DNA from: Corynebacterium sp. SCR221107
GTDB taxonomy: Bacteria; Actinomycetota; Actinomycetes; Mycobacteriales; Mycobacteriaceae
DNA: 64,000 nt
Direction of reading: 5' to 3'
Assembly (NCBI RefSeq): GCF_027886475.1
Contig: NZ_CP115670.1
Span: forward strand, 2,666,001 to 2,730,000
A model generated the notes under the pieces. It ran no database searches, was not told the DNA's origin, and saw only the letters and a program-made list of their open reading frames with translations. Below, in pieces: positions 15,326 to 57,875 of this stretch (the stretch's first letter is position 1; each line of letters begins with the position of its first letter). The position numbers and the translations under genes were made by a program.

Positions 15326-15344
15326 CCGTAGGCGTCGGAAAGCA
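15326..15344 (-). repeat. Dispersed 19-bp repeat, exact copy
   Basis: On the minus strand this reads TGCTTTCCGACGCCTACGG. Identical copies are at 49251-49269 (-) and 57857-57875 (+), with near copies elsewhere. Here it lies between the divergent TRIC and PucR genes. Function unknown. Confidence 0.85.
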
Positions 15345-15370
15345 CAGGCAACGAGCACAGGTAGCCGAAA

Positions 15371-15388
15371 ATAACTATCGATGGATAG
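15371..15388. promoter_or_regulatory. Candidate operator upstream of the PucR gene
   Basis: ATAACTATCGATGGATAG contains the dyad CTATC-GATG-GATAG and lies 25 bp before the likely GTG start. It is 16/18 identical to the site at 129-146. GATAAT (15404-15409) downstream is a likely -10, so this dyad would lie across the -35 region. Confidence 0.45.
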
Positions 15389-15412
15389 ATAAATGTGTGG
15401 CAGGATAATGCA

Positions 15413-17125
15413 GTGACCACCTCTCAGCTTCTGCTCCGCGACATTCTAGCGCTCCCCGCGCTGGTCAGGGCACATGCCGAACTGCTCGCCGGCGCCGAGC
15501 GCCTCGACACTCCTGTGCGCTGGGTTCACGTGATGGACACGGCCCGTGCCGCCGCGCATGTCGACGGCGGCGAGCTGCTTATGACCACAGGCCGTATTTT
15601 CGGCACCGACCCCGCACAGCAACGCGCGCTTATCGACGGCCTCCATGCAGGCGGTGCCGCAGCGCTGCTCGTGGAGGTAGGCGTGCACATTGACATCCTT
15701 CCCGAGGAGGTCCTACGCCAGTGTCGCACAAAAAACCTGCCACTGATCGTGGTGTACGAGGAAGTCCGCTTCAACGCCATTACCGAAGCCGTCCACCACG
15801 CCATCATGGAGCGCCACGTCAAGCAGTTAACTTCGCTACAGAAGATCACTGAGTCCTTTTGGGGGCTAATATATAACGGCGCCCCGCCGGAACAGCTCGT
15901 GCGCCACGCCTCCCGGGAACTAGGCAAACCTGTCGTGCTCGAGGATCTCAACCACCGCGTCATACTCTACTGCAAAGGTCACGAACGCCCCTCGGAGCTA
16001 CTGCGCGACTGGGAGGCAAAATCGCGGATCTGGGCCAAGGAGGCCAAGGGCATCGGCCTTATCGCGGACCCCATCACCGTGCGCGATCCCGACGACGACA
16101 CCACCTGGATTCTCATCGACGTTCAGGCCCAAGGACACCACTGGGGCAAGCTGTGCGCGCGAAATGACAGCATCGGCAACACCGACAACACCGACAACAC
16201 CGACGCTGCCATCGACGCCACGGACAGTCACATGCTCCGACATGCGGCCATGGCGCTTGCTATCGAAAGGCTGGGCAATCCCAACCCGCATTCGTGGACG
16301 GATCTTCGCGAGCGCATCGGTCTTGAGCGCCTTCTTGACAATCGCTACATCACGGCCGAAGGCCAACGCGTGGTCCTCGAATCCAGCGGTTTTAACACCA
16401 GGGGCCGCAGCCTCGTTGCCGCCGAGCTGCGCTTTACTCACTCCAGCAGGCACCAGGAACCACCCACACCACTTCAACCAGGCACCACTTTCGAACCGGC
16501 CGCCGTGCGCGCCATCCTTGCACGCCTGTCCCCCACCCTGGAATTCATCGTTGCCCCACATCCACACCATCGCGACCGTATCCTGTGCGTGCTGTCCGAC
16601 GTTTCCACGCGGATCCAGCCACGCTTGCTCGCCCAGTCCGCATTCGATTTGCTTGCCGACGCCTGCTGTACAACGAGCAACGAAGCACACCGCGTGAATC
16701 TCGAGATGGCCGCCTCCATTGGATTAGAAGGCCCCGTGGACGCAGCCTCGGCATTGCATGTGATCGGCGAGACCCCACTGGCCGATACCAGTGGCGGGAG
16801 CGTATTGACATGGGTTGCGCGCGAACAGATCGAGCTTGTCATTGGAGGCCTTCACCACGACGTGCGCGCCCAAGCATTTGCGGAAAACATTGTCGCCCCG
16901 CTTCTGATTCACGACTCTCGACACGGCACCGACCTAGTGGGAACGGTGAAAGTCCTCCTCGACAATCCCACCTCCCGATCGGCGGCAGCAGAGCAGCTTC
17001 ACCTATCCCGCGCCGCCCTCTATTCGCGGATCGCGACGATCGAGCGACTCTGTGACACCGACCTCACAAATGGAGACCAGCTCTTTAGGCTTGCGCTGGC
17101 TCTTCGAACCTATTTCGGTACCTAA
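15413..17125 (+). CDS. PucR family transcriptional regulator
   Basis: The 570-residue protein follows the PucR layout. An N-terminal purine-catabolism-regulator-like domain (starts TTSQLLLRDILALPAL; contains GELLMTTGRIFG) is followed by a GGDEF-like middle region and a C-terminal helix-turn-helix of the HTH_30/CdaR type (TVKVLLDNPTSRSAAAEQLHLSRAALYSRI). Family members sense purine, proline or GABA-type metabolites and control the associated transport genes. The GTG at 15413 follows GATAAT (15404-15409) closely and gives the usual N-terminus; GTG 15395 is an alternative. The convergent NCS1 permease next door is a likely target. Confidence 0.85.
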   Translation: MTTSQLLLRDILALPALVRAHAELLAGAERLDTPVRWVHVMDTARAAAHVDGGELLMTTGRIFGTDPAQQRALIDGLHAGGAAALLVEVGVHIDILPEEVLRQCRTKNLPLIVVYEEVRFNAITEAVHHAIMERHVKQLTSLQKITESFWGLIYNGAPPEQLVRHASRELGKPVVLEDLNHRVILYCKGHERPSELLRDWEAKSRIWAKEAKGIGLIADPITVRDPDDDTTWILIDVQAQGHHWGKLCARNDSIGNTDNTDNTDAAIDATDSHMLRHAAMALAIERLGNPNPHSWTDLRERIGLERLLDNRYITAEGQRVVLESSGFNTRGRSLVAAELRFTHSSRHQEPPTPLQPGTTFEPAAVRAILARLSPTLEFIVAPHPHHRDRILCVLSDVSTRIQPRLLAQSAFDLLADACCTTSNEAHRVNLEMAASIGLEGPVDAASALHVIGETPLADTSGGSVLTWVAREQIELVIGGLHHDVRAQAFAENIVAPLLIHDSRHGTDLVGTVKVLLDNPTSRSAAAEQLHLSRAALYSRIATIERLCDTDLTNGDQLFRLALALRTYFGT

Positions 17126-19250: not shown

Positions 19251-19270
19251 TCGCCTGAGGCCTTAGTTGC

Positions 19271-19723
19271 TTATCGACGCCGCCCGCGCCGTGGTTCCCA
19301 CATCACCACTGCCGTTGAGCGTGGCACGTGGACGATCTCCCCACGGGGGCGCGAGCTCTGATTTCGCAGTTGCTCGTTGTCGGCGTGGGCCTGCTCGAGC
19401 TTTTTTCGAAGGCGTGCGTTTTCCTTCTTCAGCTCGATGATGGCCTTGATCCCAGCCAAGTTGACGCCGTCTTCTTGGCTGAGGCGCTGCACCGTGCGCA
19501 GCAGTTCGACGTCGTGAAGCGAATAGCGGCGCCCACCGCCGGATGTGCGCATGGGTGTGACCAACCCAAGGCGATCGTATTGGCGAAGCGTTTGGGCGTG
19601 CATGCCTGCGAGTTCGGCGGCCACCGAAATCACAAAGACCTCACCGAGTGCTTGCTCAGTGGCGTCTTCAACGGCAGAGGCGTTGTCTTTGCTGGCCTTC
19701 GAGCGGTTGTGTCGCTGAGCCAT
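19271..19723 (-). CDS. hspR: Heat-shock repressor HspR (MerR type)
   Basis: HspR is the MerR-family repressor of the dnaK and clpB heat-shock genes; in actinobacteria it binds HAIR operators, assisted by DnaK. The 150-residue protein has the N-terminal HTH (VISVAAELAGMHAQTLRQYD, then RLGLVTPMRTSGGGRRYS) and a coiled coil (ELKKENARLRKKLEQAHADN). A basic end (RRGRRR) follows. The ATG at 19723 is preceded by GGAGGTGA with good spacing and is preferred to a TTG 24 nt upstream. It follows dnaJ by 38 nt on the same strand, so co-transcription is likely. Four HAIR elements were found in this window, at clpB and dnaK. Confidence 0.95.
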   Translation of the reverse strand: MAQRHNRSKASKDNASAVEDATEQALGEVFVISVAAELAGMHAQTLRQYDRLGLVTPMRTSGGGRRYSLHDVELLRTVQRLSQEDGVNLAGIKAIIELKKENARLRKKLEQAHADNEQLRNQSSRPRGEIVHVPRSTAVVMWEPRRGRRR

Positions 19724-21232: not shown

Positions 21233-21298
21233 CCCGCCAACCAGCCGCTTGCTTGGTAATCAAGCGCCCAGCAAGGTTGGCGGGCCTATTGTTTTTTT
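21233..21298 (+). terminator. Strong hairpin with T-tract on the plus strand
   Basis: CCCGCCAACC (21233-21242) pairs perfectly with GGTTGGCGGG (21275-21284), and an inner stem GCTTG/CAAGC strengthens it. The T-run (21292-21298) is on the plus strand, although the flanking genes are on the minus strand. It could act on grpE read-through only as a weak reverse terminator. A copy of the dispersed repeat begins at its last T. Confidence 0.6.
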
Positions 21299-21316
21299 GC
21301 TTTCCGACGCCCACCT
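21298..21316 (+). repeat. Dispersed repeat, partial copy
   Basis: The 14-base core TGCTTTCCGACGCC is exact; the last five bases (CACCT) differ from the TACGG of the full 19-mer. It directly follows the T-tract of the hairpin. Confidence 0.75.
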
Positions 21317-21950: not shown

Positions 21951-23782
21951 TTCTTGTCTTCTTCCTCATCCACGACCTCGGCGTCAACGACGTCGGAGTC
22001 AGCATTTGCGGAACCAGCGTTGGCGGCACCTGCCTCGGCAGCCTGTGCCTCGTAGATGGCCTTGCCCATCTCCTGGCTCTCGGTGGACAGCTTCTCAACA
22101 GCAGCCTTGATGGCCTCGATGTCGGTGCCCTTCAGGGCCTCATCAACGGCGTCGGCAGCCTCGGTGACCTTGGTCTTGATCTCCTCGGACACCTTGTCGG
22201 AGTTCTCCTCCAGGAACTTGCGGGTCTGGTAGGCCATAGACTCGGCGGAGTTGCGGGTCTCCTGCTCCTCGCGGCGCTTCTTGTCCTCCTCAGCGTGCGC
22301 CTCGGCGTCTTTGACCATGCGGTCGATCTCTTCCTGGGACAGGCCAGAGCCGTCCTGGATCTTGATGGTGTTCTCCTTGCCGGTGCCCTTGTCCTTAGCG
22401 GTGACGTGGACAATACCGTTGGCGTCGATGTCGAAGGTGACCTCGATCTGCGGGACACCACGCGGGGCCGGTGCGATGCCGCCAAGCTCGAAGGAGCCGA
22501 GCAGCTTGTTGGCTGCAGCCATCTCACGCTCGCCCTGGTAGACCTGAATCTGAACGGAAGGCTGGTTGTCTTCCGCGGTGGTGAAGGTCTCGGAACGCTT
22601 GGTTGGGATGGTGGTGTTGCGCTCGATGAGCTTGGTCATCACGCCACCCTTGGTCTCAATACCCAGCGACAGCGGGGTGACGTCGAGAAGCAGCACGTCC
22701 TTGACCTCACCGCGCAAAACGCCGGCCTGCAAAGCTGCACCAACTGCGACGACCTCGTCCGGGTTCACACCCTTGTTCGGCTCGCGGCCGCCGGTCAGCT
22801 CCTTGACCAACTCGGATACGGCAGGCATACGGGTAGAGCCACCAACCAAAACCACGTGGTCGATTTCAGCGACGGAGATGCCGGCATCCTTGATGACCTG
22901 GTTGAACGGAGTCTTGGTGCGGTCGAGCAGGTCCTGGGTGATCTTCTGGAACTCGGTGCGAGACAGGGTCTCGTCGAGGAACAGCGGGTTCTTGTCGGCG
23001 TCAACGGTGATGTAAGGAAGGTTGACGGTAGCCGACTGCGAGGCAGACAGCTCGATCTTTGCCTTCTCTGCAGCCTCACGCAGACGCTGCATAGCCATCT
23101 TGTCCTTGGAAAGGTCGACGCCGTTGGAGGCCTTGAACTTGTCGATCAGCCATTCCACGATGCGGTTGTCCCAGTCATCGCCACCGAGCTGGTTGTCACC
23201 AGCGGTTGCGCGAACCTCAACCACGCCGTCGCCGATCTCCAGCAGGGAGACGTCGAAGGTACCGCCACCGAGGTCGAAGACCAAGATGGTCTGCTCCTTC
23301 TCGCCCTTTTCGAGGCCGTAGGCCAAAGCAGCTGCGGTCGGCTCGTTGACGATGCGCAAAACGTTAAGGCCTGCGATCTGGCCAGCTTCCTTGGTGGCCT
23401 GACGCTGAGCGTCGGAGAAGTAAGCAGGGACGGTGATGACTGCGTCGGTGACATCCTCACCCAGGTAAGCCTCCGCGTCGCGCTTGAGCTTCATCAGCGT
23501 GCGGGCGGAGATTTCCTGCGGGGTGTACTTCTTGCCATCGATGCTAACGGTCCAGTCAGTGCCGATGTGACGCTTGACGGAGCGGATGGTGCGGTCAACG
23601 TTGGTGACTGCCTGGTTCTTTGCGGACTGGCCAACGAGCACCTCACCATTCTTGGCGAATGCGACCACCGACGGGGTGGTGCGCGAGCCCTCGGCGTTGG
23701 CGATGACTACCGGCTCGCCGCCCTCGAGAACAGAAACGCAAGAGTTAGTGGTACCAAGGTCAATTCCTACTGCGCGACCCAT
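21947..23782 (-). CDS. dnaK: Chaperone DnaK (Hsp70)
   Basis: This 611-residue Hsp70 binds exposed hydrophobic segments of proteins in an ATP-driven cycle. Family signatures include [32 protein letters not shown] sequence (here [17 protein letters not shown]) and [14 protein letters not shown]-terminal lid ends in an acidic EEEDKK stretch. The ATG at 23782 has GGAGGG upstream and gives the family start [13 protein letters not shown]; a longer reading from 23797 is unlikely. Two HAIR elements lie 51-126 bp upstream, so HspR repression is expected. grpE overlaps its stop. Confidence 0.97.
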
Positions 23783-24588: not shown

Positions 24589-27500
24589 ATGAATGCTCAC
24601 ACCCCACTTTCCAACAGCACTGACCTCGAAGACGTCTTGGCCGCTGCCATCAACCGCGCGCACTCCTGGCTCGCCGAAACCAACAACGCCGCCTCCAAGA
24701 AGGAGGCAAAGTCCACCGAACAGCTTGCCGCGCTCGTGCGCGACAAGGACGGCATCGCTTTTACCATGGGCTTCGTCGACCGCGTCGCACGCCCCGAGGA
24801 CAATAACGTCGCGGCCAAGGAGCTGGCGAACCTGGCCTCCCCGTGGTCGAAGAACTCGCTCCTCCCGGACTTCATTGGGCTGGTCGACAAAGGTCTGGTC
24901 ACCGCAGGCTCGCTTGCCGCATCCATCCTGCCAGGCGTGGTCATGCCGCTGGCACGCAAGCGCCTGCGACAGATGGTTGGCCATCTGGTCCTCGACGCCG
25001 AGGGCAAGGCTCTCAACGCCAAGCTCGCCGAGGCCAAGCGCGACGGCTTCCAGCTCAACCTCAACCTCCTCGGCGAGGCGGTGCTCGGCGAGGATGAGGC
25101 GATCTCCCGCCTGGAGCGCACCCGCCAATTACTCCGCAACCCCAACGTCACCTACGTCTCCATCAAGGCCTCCTCGGTCTGCGCCCAGCTCAACCCCTGG
25201 GACATCGAAGGCAACCTCACCCGCCTGAAGGATCGCTTGCGCCCGCTGTACCGCGAGGCCAAAAACCGCAGCCCATATGCCTTCATCAACATGGACATGG
25301 AGGAGTACAAGGACTTGAGCCTGACCATCCGCCTGTTCACCGAGCTCATGAGCGAGGCCGAGTTCATGGATCTACAGGCCGGGATCGTGCTGCAGGCATA
25401 TTTGCCGGACACGTTCGACGCACTGGTGGAGCTGGCCGAGTTCGCCAGGAAGCGTCGTGAGGCAGGCGGCGCCCCCATTAAGATCCGCCTGGTCAAGGGC
25501 GCCAACCTCTCGATGGAGAAGGTCGATGCGGAGATGCACGACTGGCAGCTGGCCACCTACTCGGACAAGTTTTTCGTCGACGCCAACTACTACCGTCTCA
25601 TGGACTACATCCTCCAGCCGGAGCACGCGGATAACGTCCGCATCGGCGTGGCCTCCCACAACCTGTTCACCGTCGCCTTGGCCCACGAGCTGTCCACTCG
25701 GCGCGGGGTGCAGCGCCAGCTCGACATCGAGATGCTCCAGGGTATGGCACCGGCGCAGTCCCGCGCGGTCAAGAAGGTCGCAGGCGGGCTCATCCTCTAC
25801 ACCCCGGTCGTCCACTCCGAGGACTTCGACGTCGCCGTCTCCTACCTGGTGCGCCGCCTGGAGGAAAACGGCGAGAAACAGAACTTCCTCCACGCCCTGT
25901 TCGCACCCGAGGTAGAAGGCCCTGATCACCTCACCCCGCTGGCAGCGCAGGAGGAGGCCTTCAAGAAGGCGGTGGCCAGCCGCTGGACCAATCCGGCCGG
26001 GCCAAACCGCACGCAGGACCGCACCCAGGAGGCGGCCGCCAAGGCGGGAGCCTTGTCCCACACCACCCCGGAGCACTTCAGCGGCGAGCCGGACACCGAT
26101 CCCTCCCTGCCCGCCAACCGCGCGTGGGCGCTGGAGGTTCTCGCCCGCGACCCCGGCGCGCGCACCAGCCCGCTTGTCACCGACCCGGCCGACATTGACG
26201 CCTTCGTCGCAAAGGCGGGCAAGCTCGGCGCACAGTGGGGTACTACCACTGGTGCTACCCGTGCTGAGGCGCTCGCGGTGATCGCCGACAAGCTGGCCGA
26301 CGCCCGCGGCGAGCTCATCAGCGCCATGGTCCATGAGGCAGGCAAGACGGTGGCCGAGTCCGACCCGGAGGTCTCCGAGGGCATCGACTTCGCCCAGTAC
26401 TACGCGCACAGCGCGCGCGAGCTCGACCGCGCCCGCTCGACGTTTACGCCCTTCAAGGTCGTCCTGGTCACCCCGCCGTGGAACTTCCCCTTTGCCATCC
26501 CGGTCGGCGGCGTGTTTGCCGCCCTGGCCGCGGGTGCTGCGGTGATCATCAAGCCCGCCCCGCAGGTCGTGCGCGTGGCCGAGGTCGCCGTCGCGCTCAT
26601 CCGCGAGGGGCTTGCCGACGCAGGCCACGACCCGGATCTCGTGCAGCTGGTCAACGCCGACGAGGCAGCAGCCGGCAAGCGCCTGGTCTCCCACGAGGAC
26701 ATCGACTCCGTCATCTTGACCGGCGCCTCGGACACCGCGCGGCTGTTCCGCTCGTGGAAGCCGGAGATGGTCATCAACGCCGAGACCTCCGGCAAGAACG
26801 CCATCATCGTCACCCCGGCCGCCGACCCCGACCTGGCGGTGGCCGACGTCTACCGCTCCGCCTTCGGGCACGCGGGACAAAAGTGCTCGGCCGCCTCCCT
26901 GGTCATCCTGGTCGGCTCGGTGGGTGCCTCGCAGCGCTTCATGAGCCAGCTGCTGGATGCGGTCAAGACCCTCAAGGTCGGCCCGGGCACGGACATCTCC
27001 ACCACGATGAACGGCATCATCGAGGCCCCTTCCGAGAAGCTGCTGCGCGGTCTGACCCAGCTGGATGCGGGTGAGAAGTGGCTGCTCAAGCCGGAGAAGC
27101 TCAACGAAGAGGGCACGTTGTGGTCGCCGGGCGTGCGCGACGGCGTGCGGCCGGGTTCGTGGTACCACACCCATGAGTGCTTCGGCCCGGTGCTGGGCAT
27201 CATGCGCGCCGATACCTTGGATGAGGCCGTGGCCTGGCAAAACTCCACCGGCTTCGGGCTCACCGGCGGCATCCACTCCCTCGATCCGGAGGAGATCGCC
27301 TACTGGCGCGAGCACGTGGAGGTGGGCAACGCCTATATCAACCGCGGCATCACCGGCGCGATCGTCGAGCGCCAGTCCTTCGGCGGCTGGAAGGACTCCG
27401 CCATCGGCTCCGGCGCGAAGGCTGGCGGCCCCAACTATGTGACCCAGCAGGGCCGCTGGGCGGACGGCGATCTTTCGGATGTGCCGGTCTCCTCCCTGCG

Positions 27501-28080
27501 CCCGGACATCAACCGCGCCCTGCGCGGTGCCATCGAGAAGCTGGGGCTGGATGCCGCAGACGCCGCCTGGCTGCGCGCCGCCGCCTACCTGGATGCGGCC
27601 GCCTGGCACGAGGAGTTCGGCATCGAGCACGACCGTACAGGGCTTATCTCCGAGTCGAACGTGTTCCGCTACCGTCGCCTCCTACGCCCGCTGGAGGTTC
27701 GCATCGGCGAGGGTTATGCGCTGCGCGAGGTGCTGCGCCTGCAGCTCGCGGCGTTGATTACCGGGTCTCCGGTCCGTTTCAGCGCGGCACCGAAGGTCGC
27801 CTGCGCCCTCGCGTCCGCCGGCATCGTGGTCGAGTCGATCGATGACGCCGCCTTTGCTGTGTTCGTCGGAAAGCAAAGCTCAACACGGGTGCGCGCCATC
27901 GGTGCGGTCGACACAGCGCTGTATGCGGCCGCTGCCACGTCCGGGTCGGTCGTCTTTGACCAGCCGGTGCTTGCCGACGGGCGCCGCGAGCTGCTGCCGT
28001 TCCTGCTTGAGCAGACCGTGACGGCAACCCGCCACCGCTTCGGCGTGATCGCCCCGGAGCTGGCGCCGGACAACGTCTAG
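24589..28080 (+). CDS. putA: Bifunctional proline dehydrogenase / glutamate semialdehyde dehydrogenase PutA
   Basis: PutA converts proline to glutamate in two steps. The 1163-residue protein has an N-terminal arch, an FAD-dependent proline dehydrogenase barrel (about 130-480, with IRLVKGANLSMEKV and NLFTVALAHELS) and an NAD-dependent aldehyde dehydrogenase (about 530-1000, with TPPWNFPFAIPVGGVFAALA, a Glu in MVINAETSGKNAIIV and the catalytic Cys at residue 766 in HAGQKCSAAS). A C-terminal extension follows. It lacks an N-terminal DNA-binding ribbon-helix-helix, so it is not self-regulating like the E. coli protein. The ATG at 24589 has AAGAGGA upstream; a 64-codon upstream extension is in frame but does not look coding. 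Confidence 0.95.
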   Translation: MNAHTPLSNSTDLEDVLAAAINRAHSWLAETNNAASKKEAKSTEQLAALVRDKDGIAFTMGFVDRVARPEDNNVAAKELANLASPWSKNSLLPDFIGLVDKGLVTAGSLAASILPGVVMPLARKRLRQMVGHLVLDAEGKALNAKLAEAKRDGFQLNLNLLGEAVLGEDEAISRLERTRQLLRNPNVTYVSIKASSVCAQLNPWDIEGNLTRLKDRLRPLYREAKNRSPYAFINMDMEEYKDLSLTIRLFTELMSEAEFMDLQAGIVLQAYLPDTFDALVELAEFARKRREAGGAPIKIRLVKGANLSMEKVDAEMHDWQLATYSDKFFVDANYYRLMDYILQPEHADNVRIGVASHNLFTVALAHELSTRRGVQRQLDIEMLQGMAPAQSRAVKKVAGGLILYTPVVHSEDFDVAVSYLVRRLEENGEKQNFLHALFAPEVEGPDHLTPLAAQEEAFKKAVASRWTNPAGPNRTQDRTQEAAAKAGALSHTTPEHFSGEPDTDPSLPANRAWALEVLARDPGARTSPLVTDPADIDAFVAKAGKLGAQWGTTTGATRAEALAVIADKLADARGELISAMVHEAGKTVAESDPEVSEGIDFAQYYAHSARELDRARSTFTPFKVVLVTPPWNFPFAIPVGGVFAALAAGAAVIIKPAPQVVRVAEVAVALIREGLADAGHDPDLVQLVNADEAAAGKRLVSHEDIDSVILTGASDTARLFRSWKPEMVINAETSGKNAIIVTPAADPDLAVADVYRSAFGHAGQKCSAASLVILVGSVGASQRFMSQLLDAVKTLKVGPGTDISTTMNGIIEAPSEKLLRGLTQLDAGEKWLLKPEKLNEEGTLWSPGVRDGVRPGSWYHTHECFGPVLGIMRADTLDEAVAWQNSTGFGLTGGIHSLDPEEIAYWREHVEVGNAYINRGITGAIVERQSFGGWKDSAIGSGAKAGGPNYVTQQGRWADGDLSDVPVSSLRPDINRALRGAIEKLGLDAADAAWLRAAAYLDAAAWHEEFGIEHDRTGLISESNVFRYRRLLRPLEVRIGEGYALREVLRLQLAALITGSPVRFSAAPKVACALASAGIVVESIDDAAFAVFVGKQSSTRVRAIGAVDTALYAAAATSGSVVFDQPVLADGRRELLPFLLEQTVTATRHRFGVIAPELAPDNV

Positions 28081-28136: not shown

Positions 28137-28142
28137 TCGGCA

Positions 28143-28161
28143 TGCTTGCCGACGCCTACGG
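28143..28161 (+). repeat. Dispersed 19-bp repeat, one mismatch
   Basis: TGCTTGCCGACGCCTACGG differs from the consensus at one base (G for T at position 6). It lies 6 bp after the putA hairpin and before the ATPase gene. Confidence 0.8.
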
Positions 28162-29057: not shown

Positions 29058-30491
29058 ATGAACACTGAGAATCGACCCCCCTTTCCCCCTGAGGATGCGG
29101 GTGCCACGAAGGCGGAGGCCGGAGGCGTCGGCAAGCAATCCCCTGTGGATTCGCGGCTGGACGACATACTCGATGCCGCGGTAGAAAAAGACGAGCTCCC
29201 CTTCGAGGAAACGACATCCCTGCCGGAAAAGGAGACCGCGGACCGCGCGGTGATCTTGGGCCAGGACGGGCGCTGGATCGCTGGCTGGGCGCTGCGCTTT
29301 ATCATCATGGCCGCAGCACTGGTCATTTTGTGGAAGGCGCTCGGCACCGTCTGGTCTGGGCTTTTGCCAGTGGTGCTCGCACTGATCGTGTCGACCGTAC
29401 TGTGGCCGCCGGTGCGCTGGCTGCGTCAGCGCAAGGTGCCGCCAGCGCTGGCGGTGGTCATCACCATCGTCGGCGCGATCGCCGTCATCGGCGGCATCTT
29501 TGCCTCCATCGCGCCGTCTATTGCCAACCAATCCAAAGACCTGGTGGACAAGGCCTCCCAGGGCATCGGGCAGCTGCGCAACTGGGCGGAGACCGGCCCG
29601 CTCAACCTCGACCTGAGCAAGTACGATGACCTCATCCAAAAGGGCATCAACTTCCTCCAGGACCAAATGAGCAACATCGCCTCCGGCGTGGTCGGCGGCG
29701 TGACCGCGGCCAGTGAGGTCCTGGTCACCGTGGTCCTCATGCTCATCTTGTCCTTCTTCTTCCTCAAGGACGGCGACCGCTTCCTGCCCTTGGTGCGCAC
29801 CACCACCGGCCCCAACGTCGGCTGGCACCTCACCGAGGTGCTCACCCGCATGTGGAACACCTTGAGCGGCTACGTCCGCGCGCAGGCAACCGTATCCCTG
29901 GTGGATGCCGTGCTCATCGGCCTGGGCCTAATCATCTTGAAGGTGCCGCTGGCGCTCGCGCTCGGCGTGATCACCTTCTTCGCCGGCTTCATCCCAATCG
30001 TCGGTGCGTTTTCCGCCGGTGCCCTGGCGGTGATCATCGCGCTGGTCTCCAACGGTATCCAATCCGCGCTGTTCGTGCTCATCCTGATCGTCGCCGTGCA
30101 GCAGATCGAGGGCCACGTCTTGCAGCCGGTGCTGCAGTCGAAGGCCATGAACCTGCACGCGGCGATCGTGTTGTTGTCGGTGACCTTAGGCTCCACGCTC
30201 TTCGGCGTGATCGGCGCCTTCTTGGCCGTGCCGGTCGCAGCCACGCTCGCGGTGCTGGTGCGTTACCACGCCGAGCTGGTCGCCCTGCGCGCGGGCGAGA
30301 TCACGATCGACGATATCGAGATGGCCACCACCGCCGAGGCCCAGCCCTCGGTGACCACCCAGGAGGCATGGACCCGCTTCCGCGAATCGCTGAGCGTGCT
30401 CGGGAATAAGAAGTCCGCCGAGGGAGATTCCGACGAGGCTTCGACGCCGTCCGTCAAGATCGTCGCCGAGGAAGAACCCAAGCAGTATTAG
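29058..30491 (+). CDS. AI-2E family transporter (PerM/YdiK-like)
   Basis: This 477-residue membrane protein belongs to the AI-2E/UPF0118 family of putative exporters. After a hydrophilic N-terminus (about 1-75) there are about eight helices, with family features in SFFFLKDGDRFLPL and QQIEGHVLQPVLQSKAMNLHA. Members have been linked to autoinducer-2 export or Na+/H+ exchange; the substrate here is unknown. The acidic C-terminal tail is cytosolic. The ATG at 29058 is preferred. The disordered N-terminus (codons 21-27) encodes a copy of the dispersed repeat on the opposite strand. Confidence 0.85.
   Translation: MNTENRPPFPPEDAGATKAEAGGVGKQSPVDSRLDDILDAAVEKDELPFEETTSLPEKETADRAVILGQDGRWIAGWALRFIIMAAALVILWKALGTVWSGLLPVVLALIVSTVLWPPVRWLRQRKVPPALAVVITIVGAIAVIGGIFASIAPSIANQSKDLVDKASQGIGQLRNWAETGPLNLDLSKYDDLIQKGINFLQDQMSNIASGVVGGVTAASEVLVTVVLMLILSFFFLKDGDRFLPLVRTTTGPNVGWHLTEVLTRMWNTLSGYVRAQATVSLVDAVLIGLGLIILKVPLALALGVITFFAGFIPIVGAFSAGALAVIIALVSNGIQSALFVLILIVAVQQIEGHVLQPVLQSKAMNLHAAIVLLSVTLGSTLFGVIGAFLAVPVAATLAVLVRYHAELVALRAGEITIDDIEMATTAEAQPSVTTQEAWTRFRESLSVLGNKKSAEGDSDEASTPSVKIVAEEEPKQY
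29119..29137 (-). repeat. Dispersed repeat copy inside a coding region
   Basis: On the minus strand TGCTTGCCGACGCCTCCGG matches 17 of 19 consensus bases. It lies in the disordered N-terminal part of the AI-2E transporter gene, where extra sequence would be tolerated. Confidence 0.6.
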
Positions 30492-42317: not shown

Positions 42318-42335
42318 GCTTTCCGACGCCCATAG
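42317..42335 (+). repeat. Dispersed repeat, partial copy
   Basis: The TGCTTTCCGACGCC core is exact; the last five bases are CATAG. It starts on the last T of the malE terminator. The preceding ACAGATTTT is shared with the copy at 49251-49269. Confidence 0.75.
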
Positions 42336-45707: not shown

Positions 45708-48452
45708 GTGATCACCACCGTGTCTTCCATCGCGCTCGCTGCGGCGCCTGCAACCACCCAGGCCTCCCTTATCCTGGGCATCGTCGGCATCGTTTTGTCC
45801 TTGCCCGCCTGGTTCTACTTCATCCGCGCCGCGACCCGCCTGTTCCGCTTCGTTGCCGCCGGTACGCCCAGTTACCAGCGCACCAACCGGCCGTGGCGTC
45901 GATTAGCAACGATGCTCAAGGAGGTCTTCTTCCACACGGAGCTGGTGCGCAAGCCTGCGGTGGCGGTGGCGCACTGGTTTGTGATGCTGGGCTTTTTGGT
46001 CGGCGCGCTGGTGTGGTTCGAGGCCTACATCCAGACCTTCGCCCCGGATTCGGGCTGGCCGCTGCTAAAGGACTGGTCTGTCTACCACCTGGTGGAGGAG
46101 GTGCTTGCGCTGGGGACGGTGCTCGGCATCGCCTTCCTTGTCGCGGTACGCGTCAACAAGGGCACCCGGGAGCGCCTGTCGCGCTTCTACGGCTCGAATG
46201 CCACCGCGGCGTACTTCGTCGAGGCCGTGGTGTTCATCGAGGGCCTGGGCATGCTGCTGGTCAAGGCCGCGAAGATCGCTACCTACGGGCACGCCTCCTG
46301 GACGGACTTCGTCACCCGGTATATCGCGCTGCTGCTGCCGGCCTCCCCCACCTTGGTCTCGGTCTTCGCGCTGATCAAGCTGCTGTCGGGTATGGTGTGG
46401 CTGATCGTCGTCGCCCATAACCTCAACTGGGGTGTCGCCTGGCACCGCTTCCTTGCCTTCTTTAACATCTTTTTCCGCCGCGACCCCGCAGGTGGCAAGG
46501 CCTTAGGCGCTGCTGCCCCCATGCTTTCCGACGGCCAACCACTGACCCTCGCAGCCCTCGAAGAGGCCGAGGACGAACCCACCTTGGGCGTCGGCACGCT
46601 TGGCACCGCGCCGTGGAAGATGCTGCTGGACGTGTCCACCTGTACCGAATGCGGCCGCTGTCAGGAGCAGTGCCCGGCGTGGAACACCGGCAAGCCGCTG
46701 AGCCCGAAGAAGCTGGTCACCGACGTCCGCGACGCTGCCATCGACTGGTTCGACGACTCCCACGAGGGTGTGGACGTGCTCAAGCTGGTCGGCGAATCCA
46801 ACGTCATCGAGCCGGACGTGCTGTGGTCCTGCACCAACTGCGGTGCCTGCGTGGAGCAGTGCCCGGTCGACATCGAGCACATCGACCACGTGCTGGGCAT
46901 GCGCCGCTTCCAGGTGCTCGCCGAGTCCGAGTTCCCCTCCGAACTGACCGGCCTGTTCAAGAACTTGGAGACCAAGGGCAACCCGTGGGGTCGCAATCGC
47001 TCGGAGCGCGCCTCCTGGGTGGAGGAAGCCCGCCGCGACGGCCTGGAGGTCCCCATCTTCGGCGAGGACGTCACCTCCTTCGACGACACCGAGTACCTGT
47101 TCTGGGTCGGCTGCGCCGGCGCCTTCGACGACGAGGGCAAGAAGACCACCCGCGCCGTGGTGGAGCTCCTCCACACCGCGGGCGTGAAATTCGCCGTGCT
47201 ATCCAAGGGCGAGACCTGCACCGGCGACCCTGCCCGCCGCGCCGGCAACGAGTTCTTATTCCAGCAACTCGCGCTAGAAAACGTTGAGACCCTCAACGGC
47301 GTGTTCGACGGCGTGCCGCAGGGCCAGCGCAAAATCATCACCACCTGCGCGCACTGCTTCAACACCATCCGCAACGAGTACCCCGACTTCGACGGCCACT
47401 TCGACGTCTTCCACCACACCCAGCTGCTCAACCGCCTCGTGCGCGACGGCCTGCTCACACCGGTTCCCCGCACCGCCGACAACCGCCAACCGATCACCTA
47501 CCACGACCCCTGCTTCCTCGGCCGACACAACAAGGTCTTCGACCCTCCGCGTGAGCTGCTCGGCGTCACCGGCGGCACCTTAGTGGAGATGGATCGCAAC
47601 CGCAACGAGGGATTTTGCTGCGGCGCAGGCGGCGCCCGGATGTTCATGGAGGAAAAGATCGGCACCCGCATCAACGAAAACCGCGCCGCCGAGGCCGTGG
47701 CCACCGGCGCGGGCGTTATCGCCGTGGGCTGCCCGTTCTGTAATTCCATGCTGTCGACCGGTGTGAAGGCCGTCGCCGAAAAGGACGCCCAACCCGCCGT
47801 CATGGACGTCGCGCGCCTGCTGCGCGATAGCGTGCTTTCCGACGGCCACCTGCCCGAACCCCGCCCCAAGCAGTTCCTCGAGGCGCCGCAGCGTGCCCCG
47901 AAGGCGAAGCCCGAACCACAGGACAAGCCGCAGTCCGAGGCCGCACCGCACACCCCACCGGCACCCACCGTGCCGACCCCGGGCGCGCCGGTTGCAGCAA
48001 CAAACGCCGGGGTTCCGGCCCCCGGTGCCGCCGTACCTGCACCGGGGCTAGCCACGCCCGCACCCACCGTGCCCACAGCGACTCCGGCAGTGCCAGCCCC
48101 GGGCGCAGCGGTTCCAGCACCGGGCGCCGCCACACCAACCCCGGCAGTCCCGGCACCAGGTGCGTCCGCACCAACGCCTAACGTCCCAGCTCCGGGCGCA
48201 GCCGTACCTGCACCGGGATCGGTTGTTCCAGCACCGGGGCTAGCTACACCCGCGCTCAGCGTGCCCGCTCCAGGCACAGCAGTCCCGGCACCAGGTGCGT
48301 CCGCACCAACGCCCAACGTCCCAGGTCCAGGCGCGGTCATTCCGGCACCGGGTACGTCCGTACCAACCCCTAGCGTCCCCTCCCCGGGCACAGCAGTTCC
48401 AGCACCAGGGTCAGCGATTCCCGCACCACCGGCGTCAGACGGGGACAAGTAA
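45708..48452 (+). CDS. Fe-S oxidoreductase with membrane domain (heterodisulfide reductase-like)
   Basis: This 914-residue protein resembles the essential mycobacterial iron-sulfur reductase Rv0338c. It has an N-terminal membrane part with about five helices (about 10-230, like a nitrate-reductase gamma or b-haem subunit), two [4Fe-4S] clusters (cysteines 312, 315, 318, 322 and 375, 378, 381, 385) and two CCG domains (HCFNTIRNEYPDF; GFCCGAGGARMFMEEKIGTR). An extended Pro-Ala-Gly tail of about 165 residues then follows. It probably passes electrons between a membrane quinone pool and an unknown acceptor. The GTG at 45708 has AAGGA upstream. It is close to alaT, as in Mycobacterium. Confidence 0.88.
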   Translation: MITTVSSIALAAAPATTQASLILGIVGIVLSLPAWFYFIRAATRLFRFVAAGTPSYQRTNRPWRRLATMLKEVFFHTELVRKPAVAVAHWFVMLGFLVGALVWFEAYIQTFAPDSGWPLLKDWSVYHLVEEVLALGTVLGIAFLVAVRVNKGTRERLSRFYGSNATAAYFVEAVVFIEGLGMLLVKAAKIATYGHASWTDFVTRYIALLLPASPTLVSVFALIKLLSGMVWLIVVAHNLNWGVAWHRFLAFFNIFFRRDPAGGKALGAAAPMLSDGQPLTLAALEEAEDEPTLGVGTLGTAPWKMLLDVSTCTECGRCQEQCPAWNTGKPLSPKKLVTDVRDAAIDWFDDSHEGVDVLKLVGESNVIEPDVLWSCTNCGACVEQCPVDIEHIDHVLGMRRFQVLAESEFPSELTGLFKNLETKGNPWGRNRSERASWVEEARRDGLEVPIFGEDVTSFDDTEYLFWVGCAGAFDDEGKKTTRAVVELLHTAGVKFAVLSKGETCTGDPARRAGNEFLFQQLALENVETLNGVFDGVPQGQRKIITTCAHCFNTIRNEYPDFDGHFDVFHHTQLLNRLVRDGLLTPVPRTADNRQPITYHDPCFLGRHNKVFDPPRELLGVTGGTLVEMDRNRNEGFCCGAGGARMFMEEKIGTRINENRAAEAVATGAGVIAVGCPFCNSMLSTGVKAVAEKDAQPAVMDVARLLRDSVLSDGHLPEPRPKQFLEAPQRAPKAKPEPQDKPQSEAAPHTPPAPTVPTPGAPVAATNAGVPAPGAAVPAPGLATPAPTVPTATPAVPAPGAAVPAPGAATPTPAVPAPGASAPTPNVPAPGAAVPAPGSVVPAPGLATPALSVPAPGTAVPAPGASAPTPNVPGPGAVIPAPGTSVPTPSVPSPGTAVPAPGSAIPAPPASDGDK
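47949..48440 (+). repeat. Coding repeats for a Pro-Ala-Gly tail
   Basis: The C-terminus of the Fe-S oxidoreductase is a low-complexity run of VPAPG-type pentamers with SAPTPNVP spacers. DNA repeats are evident: for example, the block starting at about 48157 recurs at about 48289 with few changes, so the tail has grown by duplication. Such tails are usually disordered. Confidence 0.8.
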
Positions 48453-48592: not shown

Positions 48593-49231
48593 ATGAGCAA
48601 CCCTTTTCAGCCTGATTATCGCATCGGCGATGAAGAGCGTCGCCAGGCGATCGAGGACCTAGGCGCGCACTTTGCGGCCGGGCGCCTGGATATTGCTTCG
48701 TATGAGCAGCGCGTCGATCAAGTCACCGCGGCTACCATGCGTTCAGAGCTGTCCGAGCTTTTCGACGATCTCCCGCGGGTCGCACAGCCCGCCATGCCGA
48801 TGAGCGTGGCGTCCCCGACAGAGCCCGTGTTCACCGCCTCTCAGATCGCCCAATCGCGCCGAGAAGGCCAGCGCACCCGGGCGGGAATCCTCGGGTTGGT
48901 GACCGTCAGCGCGTTTTTAAGTACCGCGATCTTGGGCGAGATCGGCGCGATTGCGCTTTTTCTCGTCCCTACGGTGTGGCTGCTTCTCTATGTGATGAAG
49001 GTTGGCCCGGATTCCTGGTACACGCCCAGTGTTGCCAAACTGCAGCGTGATCAGTTGCGGCAGGCGAGGATGCTCGAGGCCCAGCAGACCCAGGCGGCCC
49101 GCCTTGCCCATGCAGCCCAGGTAGAGCAGCAGAAGGCGCTGCGCAAGCAGAAGCAGGAGGAGCTGGCGTCCACCGCCATGGAGTTCGCCGACGAGACCTT
49201 GAAGCGCTTCCGCGGCCGCCACACCCGCTAG
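48593..49231 (+). CDS. DUF1707 domain protein with coiled-coil tail
   Basis: The 212-residue protein has a DUF1707 domain (YRIGDEERRQAIEDLGAHFAAGRLDIASYEQRV in short blocks), a linker, two membrane helices (about 110-147) and a C-terminal coiled coil rich in Gln, Ala and Lys (QQTQAARLAHAAQVEQQKAL). The ATG at 48593 follows TATGGT by 7 nt and is probably leaderless. It is the second DUF1707 protein of this window (5096-5533). Function unknown. Confidence 0.75.
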   Translation: MSNPFQPDYRIGDEERRQAIEDLGAHFAAGRLDIASYEQRVDQVTAATMRSELSELFDDLPRVAQPAMPMSVASPTEPVFTASQIAQSRREGQRTRAGILGLVTVSAFLSTAILGEIGAIALFLVPTVWLLLYVMKVGPDSWYTPSVAKLQRDQLRQARMLEAQQTQAARLAHAAQVEQQKALRKQKQEELASTAMEFADETLKRFRGRHTR

Positions 49232-49250: not shown

Positions 49251-49269
49251 CCGTAGGCGTCGGAAAGCA
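49251..49269 (-). repeat. Dispersed 19-bp repeat, exact copy
   Basis: TGCTTTCCGACGCCTACGG on the minus strand, between the DUF1707 gene and alaT. The T-rich flank ACAGATTTT precedes it, as at 42317. Confidence 0.85.
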
Positions 49270-50628: not shown

Positions 50629-51951
50629 TTAGAAGTTGCGGCCCAGTGCCTTGTACGTCCATCCCGCGTCAATCCAGGCGCTGGCGTCGAGGACGTTGCG
50701 GCCGTCGATTATCACCGGGGTGCGCACCAGCTGCTTGGTCGCTACGGGATCGAGCTCGACGAACTCGCGCCACTCGGTGGCCAACACCACGAGGTCCGCG
50801 CCCTGTAGTGCCTCGGCTGCGGAATCGGCGTAGTGCAGCGTCGGGAAGATGGCGCGGGCATTGGACATCGCCTGCGGATCGTAGACGGTAGTCTGGGCGC
50901 CCTGCAGCGAGAGCTGGCCTGCGACGTTAAGTGCCGGGGAATCGCGCACGTCGTCCGAGTTCGGCTTGAACGCGCAGCCAAGTACGGTGACCGACGTGCC
51001 GATGAGCGAGCCACCGCAGGCCTTCTTGGCCAACTGCACCATGTGCTCGCGGCGGCGCATGTTGATCGCGTCCACCTCCCGCAGGAAGGTCAACGCCTCG
51101 TTGGCGCCGAGCTCGCCGGCCCGGGCCATGAAGGCGCGGATGTCCTTCGGCAGGCAGCCGCCGCCAAAACCCAAGCCAGCCCCGAGGAACTTCCGTCCGA
51201 TGCGGTCATCGTAGCCGATGGCGTCGGCAAGCACGGTAACGTCTGCGCCGGCGGCCTCGCAGACTTCGGAGACGGCATTGATGAAGGAAATCTTGGTAGC
51301 CAAAAACGCGTTCGCGGACACCTTGACCAGCTCGGCGGTGGCCAGGTTGGACACGATAAACGGAGTGCCCTGCGCAAGCGGGGTGGCATAGACCTCGCGG
51401 GCGATGGCCTCCGCGCGCGAGTCCCCGGCGCGCACGCCCACGACGATGCGGTCCGGGGTGATGGTATCGCGCACGGCATAGCCCTCGCGGAGGAACTCCG
51501 GGTTCCAAGCGATCTCCACGCTAGCGCCGGGGCGGGCCAGGGAATCGGCAAGTTCCTGTAATTCGGCGGCGGTGCCCACCGGAACTGTGGACTTGCCGAA
51601 GATGACGTGCTCGCCCTCCAAAAGCGGCACGAGCGACTCGATCGCGGAGCGCACGAAGCGCAGTTCGGCGGCGTAGGAGCCCTTCTGCTGCGGGGTGCCC
51701 ACGCCGAGGAAGTGCACGCTGGCAAACGCCGCTGCCTGCTCGAAAGAGGTGCTAAACCCCAGCCGCCCAGCCTCAGCACCGCGGGCGAGAACCTCGGGCA
51801 GGCCCGGCTCGTAGAAGGGAACCTTCCCCTCAGACAGGCTGGCGATCTTTGCTTCATCCACATCCACGCCCAGTACCTCATGGCCGAGCTCGGCCATGCA
51901 GGCGGCGTGGGTTGCACCGAGGTAGCCGGTGCCGATCACGGTCATTCGCAT
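50629..51951 (-). CDS. ugd: UDP-glucose 6-dehydrogenase
   Basis: This enzyme oxidises UDP-glucose to UDP-glucuronate with NAD, for cell-envelope polysaccharides or glycolipids. The 440-residue protein has the NAD motif VIGTGYLGATHAACMAELG, IFGKSTVPVGTA and the catalytic cysteine near residue 266 in GFGGGCLPKDIRAF. A second half-site VTVLGCAFKPNSDDVRDSPA ends the helical linker. The equivalents udgA and dcd are adjacent also in mycobacteria. A hairpin (51965-51994) separates it from dcd. Confidence 0.94.
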   Translation of the reverse strand: MRMTVIGTGYLGATHAACMAELGHEVLGVDVDEAKIASLSEGKVPFYEPGLPEVLARGAEAGRLGFSTSFEQAAAFASVHFLGVGTPQQKGSYAAELRFVRSAIESLVPLLEGEHVIFGKSTVPVGTAAELQELADSLARPGASVEIAWNPEFLREGYAVRDTITPDRIVVGVRAGDSRAEAIAREVYATPLAQGTPFIVSNLATAELVKVSANAFLATKISFINAVSEVCEAAGADVTVLADAIGYDDRIGRKFLGAGLGFGGGCLPKDIRAFMARAGELGANEALTFLREVDAINMRRREHMVQLAKKACGGSLIGTSVTVLGCAFKPNSDDVRDSPALNVAGQLSLQGAQTTVYDPQAMSNARAIFPTLHYADSAAEALQGADLVVLATEWREFVELDPVATKQLVRTPVIIDGRNVLDASAWIDAGWTYKALGRNF

Positions 51952-55879: not shown

Positions 55880-55893
55880 GGAGCGCCACCCGG

Positions 55894-57837
55894 CTAGTCC
55901 CGCTGCACCGTCGCCGGCCACCAAAAGCGCTCGCCGAGCAGCTGGACCACCGCGGGGATGAGCAGCGTGCGCACCACCAGGGTGTCGAGTAGCACGCCGA
56001 TGAAGATGACGATGCCGATCTGCGCGAGAACCACCAGCGGCAGCACGCCCAAGGCCGCGAACACCGCGGCCAAAAGGATGCCCGCGGAGGTGATCACCCC
56101 GCCGGTGGCGCTCAGCGAACGCAGCACGCCTTCCTTCGTGCCGTGCTTGGCCGCCTCCTCGCGCGCCCGGGTAATGAGGAAGATCGTGTAGTCGATGCCC
56201 AGCGCCACCAGGAACACGAAGGCATACAGCGGCGTGGTGTCGGCGAAGGCCTCGAAGCCGAAGACGTAGGTGGAGATCCACCACCCCAGCCCGAGTGCTG
56301 CAACGTTGGTCAAAAACACCGAGGCCACCATGATTAGCGGCGCCAGCAGGCTGCGCAGGACCACCACCAGCGCCAGGAAGACCAGCGCGAGCACCAGCGG
56401 GAAGATGAGGGCGCGATCCTTAGCGGCGTTGGCGGCCTGGTCATAAAGCTGGGCGTCCTGGCCGCCCACCTTGGCGTCGTTAAGCGAGGAATCGGCGATG
56501 AGCGAGCGAAGCTCGCCCGTATCGGGCCCGGAGACGTTGAGCACCTGCCACGACCCGGCCGGCTCAGCCTGCGTGACCACCGCGCCACGCTCGGTGAGGT
56601 AGCTCGATAGCTCTTGGGCGTCCGTGGTGATCACCACCGCCGGGGTGGCGTCCTGGCCGGGGAACTTCTCCTCCAACACGCTCGCCGCCGCGATCGATTC
56701 CGGGGTGTCGATGAACTGTTGCTCCTGGGTCAGCCCCGTGCGAATGCCCAGCGCCCCGGCGCTCGCGGCACCGATGAGCAGCAGGGAGACCGCCACCACG
56801 TGGCCCGGGCGCGCGCGAACCATCCCGCCCACACGGTCCCAGAACGCGTGCTCCGGCTCAGCGCCCAGCTGCGGCCGGCGCGGCCAGAAGATCCACCGGC
56901 CAAACAGCACGAGGATTCCCGGCAGCACGAACACGCCGAAGGCCAGCGCGATGAGAATGCCCACCATCGAGCCCACGCCCAGGCCTCGGGTGTTCGGTAC
57001 GGCGGACAGCAGCAGGCAGGCCACGCCGAGCACCACGGTCATCGCGGACATCGAGACGGTCTTGGCGGTAGGACCCCAGGCCGCGGCCATGGCGTCGAAG
57101 CGCGAGTCGTGGCGCTGCAGCTCGTCGCGGTAGCGGGAGATCAACAGCAACGCGTAATTCGTTCCCGCGCCGAAGACCAGCACGGACAAGATGCCGGAGA
57201 CGGACTCGTCCCAGCTTTGCCCGAGCGCGCCGAGTACCCAGGTAAACGCGATCTGCGCGAAGCGGTCGGCCACAGCAATGACCAGCAGCGGGATTACCCA
57301 CAGGATCGGCGAGCGGTAGGTGACGATGAGCAGGATCGCCACGATCACCGCCGTTATGGCCAGCAGCATGAAGTTCGCACCGCTGAACACGGCCGAGAGG
57401 TCGGCGGTCACGGCGGCGGGGCCAGTGATCGCGGACTCCACCCCGGTTGGCACCTGCGTGGCGATGTCTTCGCGCAGGTCAAGCACGCGCTGCGAGGATT
57501 CGCTGAGCCCCTCGTTGGGGATGTTGATCGGGATGATGGCGGCGGTGCCGTCGGCGTTGGGCACCAAGGGCCCGCCTGCCTGCTCGGCGATGGGCGCGAG
57601 CTCGCCCAGCGGCAGCGTCTGCCCGTCGGTTGAGGTCAGCAGGATAATGGCGGCTTGGGTGTCCTCGCCGGGCCGCTGCGCCAGCGCCTCGGCAACCAGC
57701 GTGGAGTCGGCCCCGTCAGGCAGGTTGCCGGTGGTGTCGCCGGGTTTGTCGGTGGCGCCGAGGCCCATGAGGCCTCCGGTGATGAGGATGAGGACTATGG
57801 CGACCCTGCGCATCGCCTTCATGGTGGTACCGGTCAC
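55894..57837 (-). CDS. MMPL family RND transporter
   Basis: This 647-residue transporter of the MMPL/RND superfamily has the typical pattern of one helix, a periplasmic loop, a five- to six-helix bundle and a repeat of this unit. Features are FGAGTNYALLLISRYRDEL (the central Asp/Tyr region of helix 4) and its second-half counterpart VALGIDYTIFLITRAREE. Members export lipids or drugs; in corynebacteria several export trehalose mycolate. This shorter form, without a C-terminal cytosolic domain, is more like YdfJ-type putative drug exporters. The GTG at 57837 with AAAGGGG upstream is preferred to a much longer frame. A dispersed 19-bp repeat begins 20 bp upstream. Confidence 0.88.
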   Translation of the reverse strand: MTGTTMKAMRRVAIVLILITGGLMGLGATDKPGDTTGNLPDGADSTLVAEALAQRPGEDTQAAIILLTSTDGQTLPLGELAPIAEQAGGPLVPNADGTAAIIPINIPNEGLSESSQRVLDLREDIATQVPTGVESAITGPAAVTADLSAVFSGANFMLLAITAVIVAILLIVTYRSPILWVIPLLVIAVADRFAQIAFTWVLGALGQSWDESVSGILSVLVFGAGTNYALLLISRYRDELQRHDSRFDAMAAAWGPTAKTVSMSAMTVVLGVACLLLSAVPNTRGLGVGSMVGILIALAFGVFVLPGILVLFGRWIFWPRRPQLGAEPEHAFWDRVGGMVRARPGHVVAVSLLLIGAASAGALGIRTGLTQEQQFIDTPESIAAASVLEEKFPGQDATPAVVITTDAQELSSYLTERGAVVTQAEPAGSWQVLNVSGPDTGELRSLIADSSLNDAKVGGQDAQLYDQAANAAKDRALIFPLVLALVFLALVVVLRSLLAPLIMVASVFLTNVAALGLGWWISTYVFGFEAFADTTPLYAFVFLVALGIDYTIFLITRAREEAAKHGTKEGVLRSLSATGGVITSAGILLAAVFAALGVLPLVVLAQIGIVIFIGVLLDTLVVRTLLIPAVVQLLGERFWWPATVQRD

Positions 57838-57856
57838 GGTGGCCCCTTTTCTTTTG

Positions 57857-57875
57857 TGCTTTCCGACGCCTACGG
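57857..57875 (+). repeat. Dispersed 19-bp repeat, exact copy
   Basis: TGCTTTCCGACGCCTACGG on the plus strand, 20 bp upstream of the MMPL gene (which is on the minus strand). A T-rich flank (CTTTTCTTTTG) precedes it. Confidence 0.85.

Follow-up and report, generated by a model that had tools for sequence, protein, structure and literature searches.

A two-part 11-bp word found in most Corynebacterium genomes is a candidate tag for the uptake of self-DNA

Strong sequence preferences in DNA uptake are ascribed to two bacterial families, both Gram-negative, in the sections of the source drawn on here (PMC7811141). In Neisseriaceae, the DNA uptake sequence (DUS) is described as a short non-palindromic word with thousands of copies in coding and intergenic DNA, with dialects in related species and with inverted pairs (PMC3630211), and its atypical distribution as a mark of mobile elements (PMC7371117). 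In Pasteurellaceae, many copies of the uptake signal sequence (USS), again a short word, are described as telling self from foreign DNA (PMC7811141). Here, we report a short repeated word in a stretch of 64,000 nucleotides of Corynebacterium sp. SCR221107 (assembly GCF_027886475.1, contig NZ_CP115670.1, positions 2,666,001 to 2,730,000; the whole stretch is called the window), and its spread over the genus. The word is like the DUS in form, abundance, location and dialects, but it is of unrelated sequence and from another phylum, has no known ComP-type receptor, is not enriched in inverted pairs and carries a free 2-bp centre. It shares with the USS its many copies and an A/T-rich flank, whereas its sequence is another and its T-tract lies 5′ of the core, as seen between genes in the source genome. 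Corynebacterium possesses an outer mycolate membrane, so that DNA must cross an outer layer, as in the Gram-negative families with known uptake sequences. In the actinobacterium Micrococcus luteus, transformation is described as requiring tad genes and ComEC, and comEA and dprA orthologs are reported (PMC4322843). The same kinds of gene occur in the source genome; the terms 'uptake sequence' and 'sequence-specific' are absent from the main text of the Micrococcus paper (PMC4322843).

The unit is a two-part 11-mer, GCTT-NN-CGACG, rather than the 19-bp repeat that the initial annotation of the window had described as scattered between genes. When each core position was varied in turn, the nine outer bases proved strict and the two central bases free. 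The 19-mer is this core with a 3′ extension preferred between genes, where the form in the window's genome (G000) mostly reads T-tract, then GCTTKCCGACG, then CCYACNGG (99 copies). Genome-wide, GCTTNNCGACG occurs 1,432 times in G000 (726 and 706 by strand), or one copy per 2.1 kb, against 82 for the reversed pattern, which served as control; GCTTKCCGACG occurs 877 times (control 15), GCTTKCCGACGCC 296 times (151 and 145; control 1) and the exact 13-mer GCTTTCCGACGCC 115 times (51 and 64; control 0). Within the window, the previously listed copies of the 19-mer were all recovered, three exact, one with a single mismatch and the 16-17 of 19 matches with two mismatches (29119, 58263) or three (21298, 42317), as were the seven exact sites of GCTTTCCGACGCC. 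Chance is untenable as their source, since 13 matches to the 19-mer with at most three mismatches stand against none in 100 dinucleotide shuffles. The statement that most full copies are intergenic held for the three exact ones and for those at 21298, 42317 and 58263, and failed for two: the copy at 28143 overlaps the start of a called open reading frame (ORF, 28142-28981) and that at 29119 lies inside a called gene.

Background was assessed in a 464-kb sample of G000, consisting of the window and 20 stretches of 20 kb; as these were picked partly near known copies, density in the sample (0.63 per kb) exceeds the genome-wide rate (0.47 per kb). Gene boundaries were drawn by a simple caller of our own whose coding fraction, 78%, is probably too low, so that intergenic shares are upper estimates: 177 of 311 copies, over half, fell in called genes, and intergenic enrichment in G000 was about 2.7-fold per base. 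Both classes lay far above background. Coding copies numbered 137, against a mean of 14.4 and a maximum of 24 in 100 within-gene synonymous-codon shuffles, and intergenic copies 127, against a mean of 1.0 and a maximum of 5 under an order-2 Markov model. The main coding frame is Leu-X-Asp (131 of 177 coding copies), and density in G000 was 0.38 per kb below 55% G+C (only four windows of sequence) versus 0.69-0.87 per kb above 61%.

Pattern searches found the word well beyond the window, genome-wide and in related species. Among 242 Corynebacterium genomes, 171 are copy-rich (195-1,964 copies, median 1,090; at least 1,000 in 98) and 71 copy-poor (8-134 copies), some of the latter still exceeding control (G192 4.3, G199 3.6 and G247 2.8 times). 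In 80-kb samples, five copy-rich relatives held 33-56 copies and five copy-poor ones 0-2, and no replacement word of similar density was found in five copy-poor genomes (80 kb each). Outside the genus, 120 genomes from 49 genera of the order were near or below control, at most about 1.6-fold, compared with 17-fold in G000. Eleven named Corynebacterium genomes, which were among the matches listed for a form of the word and are not a random sample since they were found because they carry it, hold 384-1,901 copies (among them C. xerosis 1,901, C. halotolerans 1,893, C. stercoris 1,558, C. lipophiloflavum 1,277, C. bouchesdurhonense 1,235, C. silvaticum 1,122, C. kefirresidentii 821, C. yonathiae 781); three non-Corynebacterium actinobacterial genomes reached likewise were at control level. 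Several of the named genomes have the same counts as genomes of the genus set (C. xerosis and G253, for example), supporting the genus assignment.

With 62 of 66 genomes with marker loci placed, on a tree some of whose deep branches are poorly supported, the copy-rich and copy-poor states required 10 parsimony changes, against a mean of 21 and a minimum of 15 in 200 label shuffles. Copy-poor species adjoin copy-rich ones (G248 by G256; G006, G132, G170 and G196 by G004 and G073), indicating that the word was lost or gained repeatedly. No description of it was found among the papers listed from the open-licence PMC literature on Corynebacterium or Actinobacteria, none of those listed for the literal 11-mers names Corynebacterium in its title, and the consulted sections of a motif-discovery paper with three Corynebacterium species give only CRISPR-related pairs for them (PMC5217627). 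Taken together, these results show that the element is real, present in most of the genus and seemingly undescribed as far as the open-licence PMC literature shows.

Conservation of the copies was compared in ten genes of the comEC neighbourhood, with several genome pairs used in both directions, so that the counts are not independent. Inside copies, the CTT codon retained its third base in 43 of 66 comparisons of copy-rich relatives, versus 164 of 447 outside (Fisher p = 2e-5, uncorrected for re-used pairs), and the other three synonymous positions went in the same direction (p 0.01-0.05). Of the copies aligned between copy-rich relatives, 36 of 74 were intact; when copy-rich genomes were aligned with the copy-poor relatives nearest to them, none of 30 was. 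In a one-locus alignment, the copy-poor sisters hold near-matches, for instance a GATG end for GACG.

The centre of the word depends on the species. GC and TC are common in G000, G123 and G004, whereas GA, AT and GT are common in G060, GC, AT, GA, GT and TT in G074, where starts with GCGT also occur, and in G044 six of the 11 copies between genes have TA. The shared core thus comes in dialects, its common centres differing among the six copy-rich genomes sampled, although the samples outside G000 are small and mostly coding, so that codon use contributes to these differences. In G000, the choice of centre is restricted in intergenic copies (GC 58 and TC 46 of 134) and broader in coding ones, as expected if proteins constrain it.

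Regions around phage portal genes are poor in the word. A portal-gene search of 36 copy-rich genomes gave five matches, three over the curated cut-off and two (G019 and G106) under it. Counted over stretches of fixed length, the 24 kb around each portal held 0, 1, 1, 2 and 1 copies, or 5 in 120 kb versus about 67 expected from genome rates, and the full 60-kb portal regions, flanks included, held 50 versus about 167. In G250 (1,454 copies), a stretch of at least 60 kb with a strong portal match (L302-L304, G250:C1:713001-773000) contained no copy, compared with 8 in 20 kb elsewhere; this is probably a large foreign island or a prophage plus its neighbours. A search for phages matched 21 Corynebacterium records, those listed being three phages of C. 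glutamicum or B. flavum hosts. In G000 itself, the segment L058:12000-20000 (G000:C1:2862001-2870000) has a G+C of 0.52-0.54 and few genes by the genome's own codon model, and is likely an acquired island, though three copies of the word are present.

No orientation bias relative to replication or gene direction, a feature proposed for checking at the outset, was seen in the sample. By chromosome half, 313 copies split 80/75 and 82/76, the origin being assumed near the contig start, in rough agreement with the GC skew seen in the stretches; 96 intergenic copies were opposite to both neighbouring genes in 35 cases, in the same direction as both in 28, and mixed in 19 and 14. Spacing was near random (mean 1,357 bp, coefficient of variation 0.90), and in 99 intergenic copies no information above background remained outside about -6 to +18 of the core, leaving no longer conserved unit or terminal inverted repeats of the kind expected in a REP or MITE relic. 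The balanced orientation and near-random spacing argue against a role as terminator, promoter, KOPS or Chi.

A word spread over the host chromosome in either orientation, with dialects, scarce in prophages and absent from entire lineages, has the look of a DNA uptake sequence. We favour, with a probability of roughly one half (about 0.52), the reading that it works as a self-DNA tag in the manner of the uptake sequences of Neisseriaceae and Pasteurellaceae, which fits best among the four origins suggested in the initial annotation, an interpretation borne out in part. A putative surface DNA-binding factor would favour word-bearing double-stranded DNA, which a Tad/Flp pilus and ComEA would draw in; ComEC would let a single strand through to the cell interior for integration by homologous recombination. 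With tagged DNA entering preferentially, tags would pile up on both strands wherever the protein sequence permits, and lineages losing the preference would let them decay. Uptake, the receptor and the transformability of Corynebacterium are each what we infer rather than observe. The word is not filed under the DUS or USS families, because its sequence is unrelated, its inverted pairs are not enriched and the defining effect on uptake is a predicted one. Tentatively, at just short of even odds, Corynebacterium may represent a third lineage with independently evolved sequence-specific self-DNA uptake, marked by a bipartite tag, dialects, repeated losses and a Tad rather than a type IVa pilus.

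The machinery for such a process can be recognised in G000, which has a ComEC match with an adjoining comEA-like gene, a tad locus with two TadB/C matches, whose neighbours we name tadZ, tadA, flp, tadE and tadF by resemblance, a prepilin peptidase and two DprA-family genes. ComEC was matched in 241 of the 242 genomes, the exception being the copy-poor G205. In a profile-tested set of 71 genomes (36 copy-rich, 35 copy-poor), DprA and prepilin peptidase were found in all 71 (the latter over cut-off in 69) and the TadB/C family in 69 (66 over cut-off). At least two TadB/C matches were present in 34 of 36 copy-rich versus 22 of 35 copy-poor genomes (11 with one, 2 with none), a suggestive difference for which phylogeny and divergence are confounding factors. 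The small genes of the tad locus can be recognised in copy-poor species, and a plasmid search with the TadA protein gave no useful result.

Several side observations concern these genes. The second DprA-family gene of G000 lies at G000:C1:2607524-2608126 (in a 298-amino-acid frame), the other at 1944615; two matches were likewise obtained in G052 and G063. In most copy-rich genomes the two TadB/C frames differ in length, and in eight copy-poor genomes (G046, G075, G231, G257, G010, G015, G085 and G114) both matches lie in same-length frames (353-383 amino acids), as a fusion of tadB with tadC would give. At G103:C1:515910-516859, away from the ordinary tad locus, the strongest T2SSF match among the 71 genomes adjoins an additional match to prepilin peptidase, the two forming an extra gene pair of pilus type. 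In G060, the usual comEC neighbours comEA, degV and nadD are missing within 6.6 kb (L222, G060:C1:1710001-1730000).

A number of results weigh against the uptake reading. Most of the copy-poor genomes examined share the machinery genes: all 33 copy-poor loci read had both comEA and comEC (the comEC of G153 being broken by an internal stop), and each of the 35 copy-poor genomes tested had dprA and prepilin peptidase. The presence of comEC, TadB/C, dprA or prepilin peptidase, tried as a separator of the two groups, fails, each being present in both. Conversely, copy-rich G060 has no comEA within 6.6 kb of comEC, the gene not having been sought elsewhere in that genome, and the comEC matches of copy-rich G001, G053 and G246 come in two pieces; in these and in G153, assembly error or recent decay may be the cause. 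A simple motif detected Flp in 11 of 13 tad loci from copy-poor genomes and in 11 of 16 from copy-rich ones, so that it does not track the word; the 7 of 29 loci without it (5 copy-rich) are taken for motif misses. No residue in the ComEA and ComEC columns separates the groups better than in control genes, and no receptor or word-tracking protein feature was found in ComEA, ComEC or the small tad genes, so that the word could serve another protein. Among the titles listed from the open-licence PMC literature, none announces natural transformation of Corynebacterium.

Other points against this reading come from the word itself. Measured against control, the groups overlap, copy-poor genomes reaching 4.3-fold and copy-rich ones falling to 3.2-fold. 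When copy-rich genomes were compared with copy-poor ones, only the CTT position of the four synonymous positions exceeded background; two equalled it, and the GAC position fell under it (3 of 18 versus 263 of 585). Intergenic enrichment, another proposed feature, was confined to G000, five other species showing 0.56-1.17-fold (80 kb each). Pairs at most 200 bp apart were not enriched (39 versus 40 expected; 15 convergent, 8 divergent, 16 tandem), and the prophage depletion fits any slowly accumulating chromosomal word.

The failure of competence genes to track the word would also suit the binding site of a putative cytoplasmic chromosome-organising or repair protein, lost or gained in some lineages. 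This alternative, the architectural protein site of the initial annotation, is kept as a rival but appears unlikely. It agrees with the near-uniform spread over the sampled chromosome without gene-direction bias, the two-part core with its free 2-bp centre, the near-absence from prophages and the repeated loss or gain; however, the word reaches 1,964 sites in some species although other members of the genus do without it, no enrichment by chromosome half appeared in the sample, and a centre preferred by each species is more usual for uptake sequences than for organiser sites. More doubtful is an iterated word maintained by a bias in mutation or repair, possibly linked to a methyltransferase, like HIP1, a thousand-copy word of some cyanobacterial lineages only. 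Hundreds to thousands of copies, many of them coding and nearly all-or-none by lineage, would fit such a word, but HIP1 is a palindrome whereas GCTTNNCGACG is not self-complementary, and its 2-bp gap is unlike HIP1 or usual methylation sites. Moreover, prophage regions of similar G+C in the same genomes are nearly word-free, which simple mutation bias would not produce unless all were recent arrivals.

A Chi-like recombination hot-spot or KOPS-like polarity word is improbable. Chi and KOPS are likewise short, frequent chromosomal words, and rarity in prophages would suit them, but the halves of the chromosome show no polarity, and the RecC family PF04257, detected in the E. coli control, was found in none of the 71 genomes, disfavouring RecBCD-Chi. 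A remnant of a small mobile element or part of a transcription terminator has very little in its favour beyond the intergenic T-tract and 3′ extension in G000 and some convergent pairs that could form hairpins, such as that at 37604-37641. Conservation limited to about 24 bp around the core, near-random spacing without clusters and the synonymous positions kept in coding copies make the suggested transposable relic a poor fit, and the balanced orientation relative to neighbouring genes does the same for the suggested transcript-end element. Codon or composition bias without any element, to which the predominance of one coding frame might point, is refuted: the excess is nine-fold over synonymous-codon shuffles and more than 100-fold over the intergenic Markov model, and the genome counts and the 0-2 copies per 80 kb in copy-poor relatives speak the same way.

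The window holds 46 GCTT and 4 GCGT forms of the word (Table 1). The ORF beginning at 28142 opens with the word itself (28142-28161, ATGCTTGCCGACGCCTACGG), so that its start may be misplaced or the word may lie at the protein's N-terminus. At 37604-37641, two intergenic copies face each other 27 bp apart, and a hairpin is possible.

Table 1. Copies of the word in the window (positions counted from its first nucleotide).
Feature	Position	Strand	Context
copy GCTTACCGACG	179..189	+	intergenic
copy GCTTGTCGACG	319..329	+	coding
copy GCTTACCGACG	1417..1427	-	coding
copy GCTTTTCGACG	1489..1499	-	coding
copy GCTTGCCGACG	2167..2177	-	coding
copy GCTTGCCGACG	4045..4055	+	coding
copy GCTTGCCGACG	4234..4244	-	coding
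copy GCTTTCCGACG	5875..5885	+	coding
copy GCTTATCGACG	7841..7851	-	intergenic
copy GCTTGCCGACG	9724..9734	-	coding
copy GCTTATCGACG	10198..10208	+	intergenic
copy GCTTTCCGACG	11442..11452	-	coding
copy GCTTGACGACG	11648..11658	-	coding
exact 19-mer, core 15333-15343	15326..15344	-	intergenic
copy GCTTATCGACG	15628..15638	+	coding
copy GCTTGCCGACG	16651..16661	+	coding
copy GCTTATCGACG	19269..19279	+	edge of called gene
copy GCTTCACGACG	19510..19520	-	coding
19-mer, 3 mismatches, core 21299-21309, T-tract 5′	21298..21316	+	intergenic
copy GCTTCTCGACG	22681..22691	-	coding
copy GCTTGCCGACG	26610..26620	+	coding
copy GCTTTCCGACG	27864..27874	-	coding
copy GCTTGCCGACG	27969..27979	+	coding
19-mer, 1 mismatch	28143..28161	+	overlaps called ORF start
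19-mer, 2 mismatches	29119..29137	-	called coding region
copy GCTTGCCGACG	32024..32034	-	coding
copy GCTTGCCGACG	32356..32366	+	coding
copy GCTTGTCGACG	33415..33425	-	coding
variant GCGTGCCGACG	34823..34833	-	coding
variant GCGTAACGACG	35002..35012	+	coding
copy GCTTTCCGACG, left arm of convergent pair with 37631..37641	37604..37614	+	intergenic
copy GCTTGCCGACG, right arm of convergent pair with 37604..37614	37631..37641	-	intergenic
copy GCTTTCCGACG	38843..38853	+	coding
copy GCTTGCCGACG	40900..40910	-	intergenic by own caller; neighbouring gene probably missed
19-mer, 3 mismatches, core 42318-42328, T-tract 5′	42317..42335	+	intergenic
copy GCTTATCGACG	43776..43786	-	coding
copy GCTTTCCGACG	46523..46533	+	coding
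variant GCGTGCCGACG	46589..46599	-	coding
copy GCTTTCCGACG	47834..47844	+	coding
copy GCTTTTCGACG	48757..48767	+	coding
exact 19-mer, core 49258-49268, T-tract 5′	49251..49269	-	intergenic
copy GCTTGCCGACG	51222..51232	-	coding
copy GCTTAACGACG	56475..56485	-	coding
exact 19-mer, core 57858-57868	57857..57875	+	intergenic
19-mer, 2 mismatches (GCGT form), core 58264-58274	58263..58281	+	intergenic
copy GCTTGCCGACG	59231..59241	-	coding
copy GCTTGCCGACG	59362..59372	-	coding
copy GCTTTGCGACG	62462..62472	+	coding
copy GCTTAACGACG	62766..62776	-	intergenic
copy GCTTTCCGACG	63800..63810	+	coding

If the word is indeed a tag for self-DNA uptake, this would show that such tags arise time and again, perhaps in any lineage where incoming DNA has to pass an outer membrane. 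Many Corynebacterium species would then be naturally transformable, which would help to explain which of them exchange genes, and the word would offer a ready marker for foreign DNA in Corynebacterium genomes. Even if it serves another system, a genus-limited word that is conserved at synonymous sites and comes and goes between relatives would represent unexplained biology.

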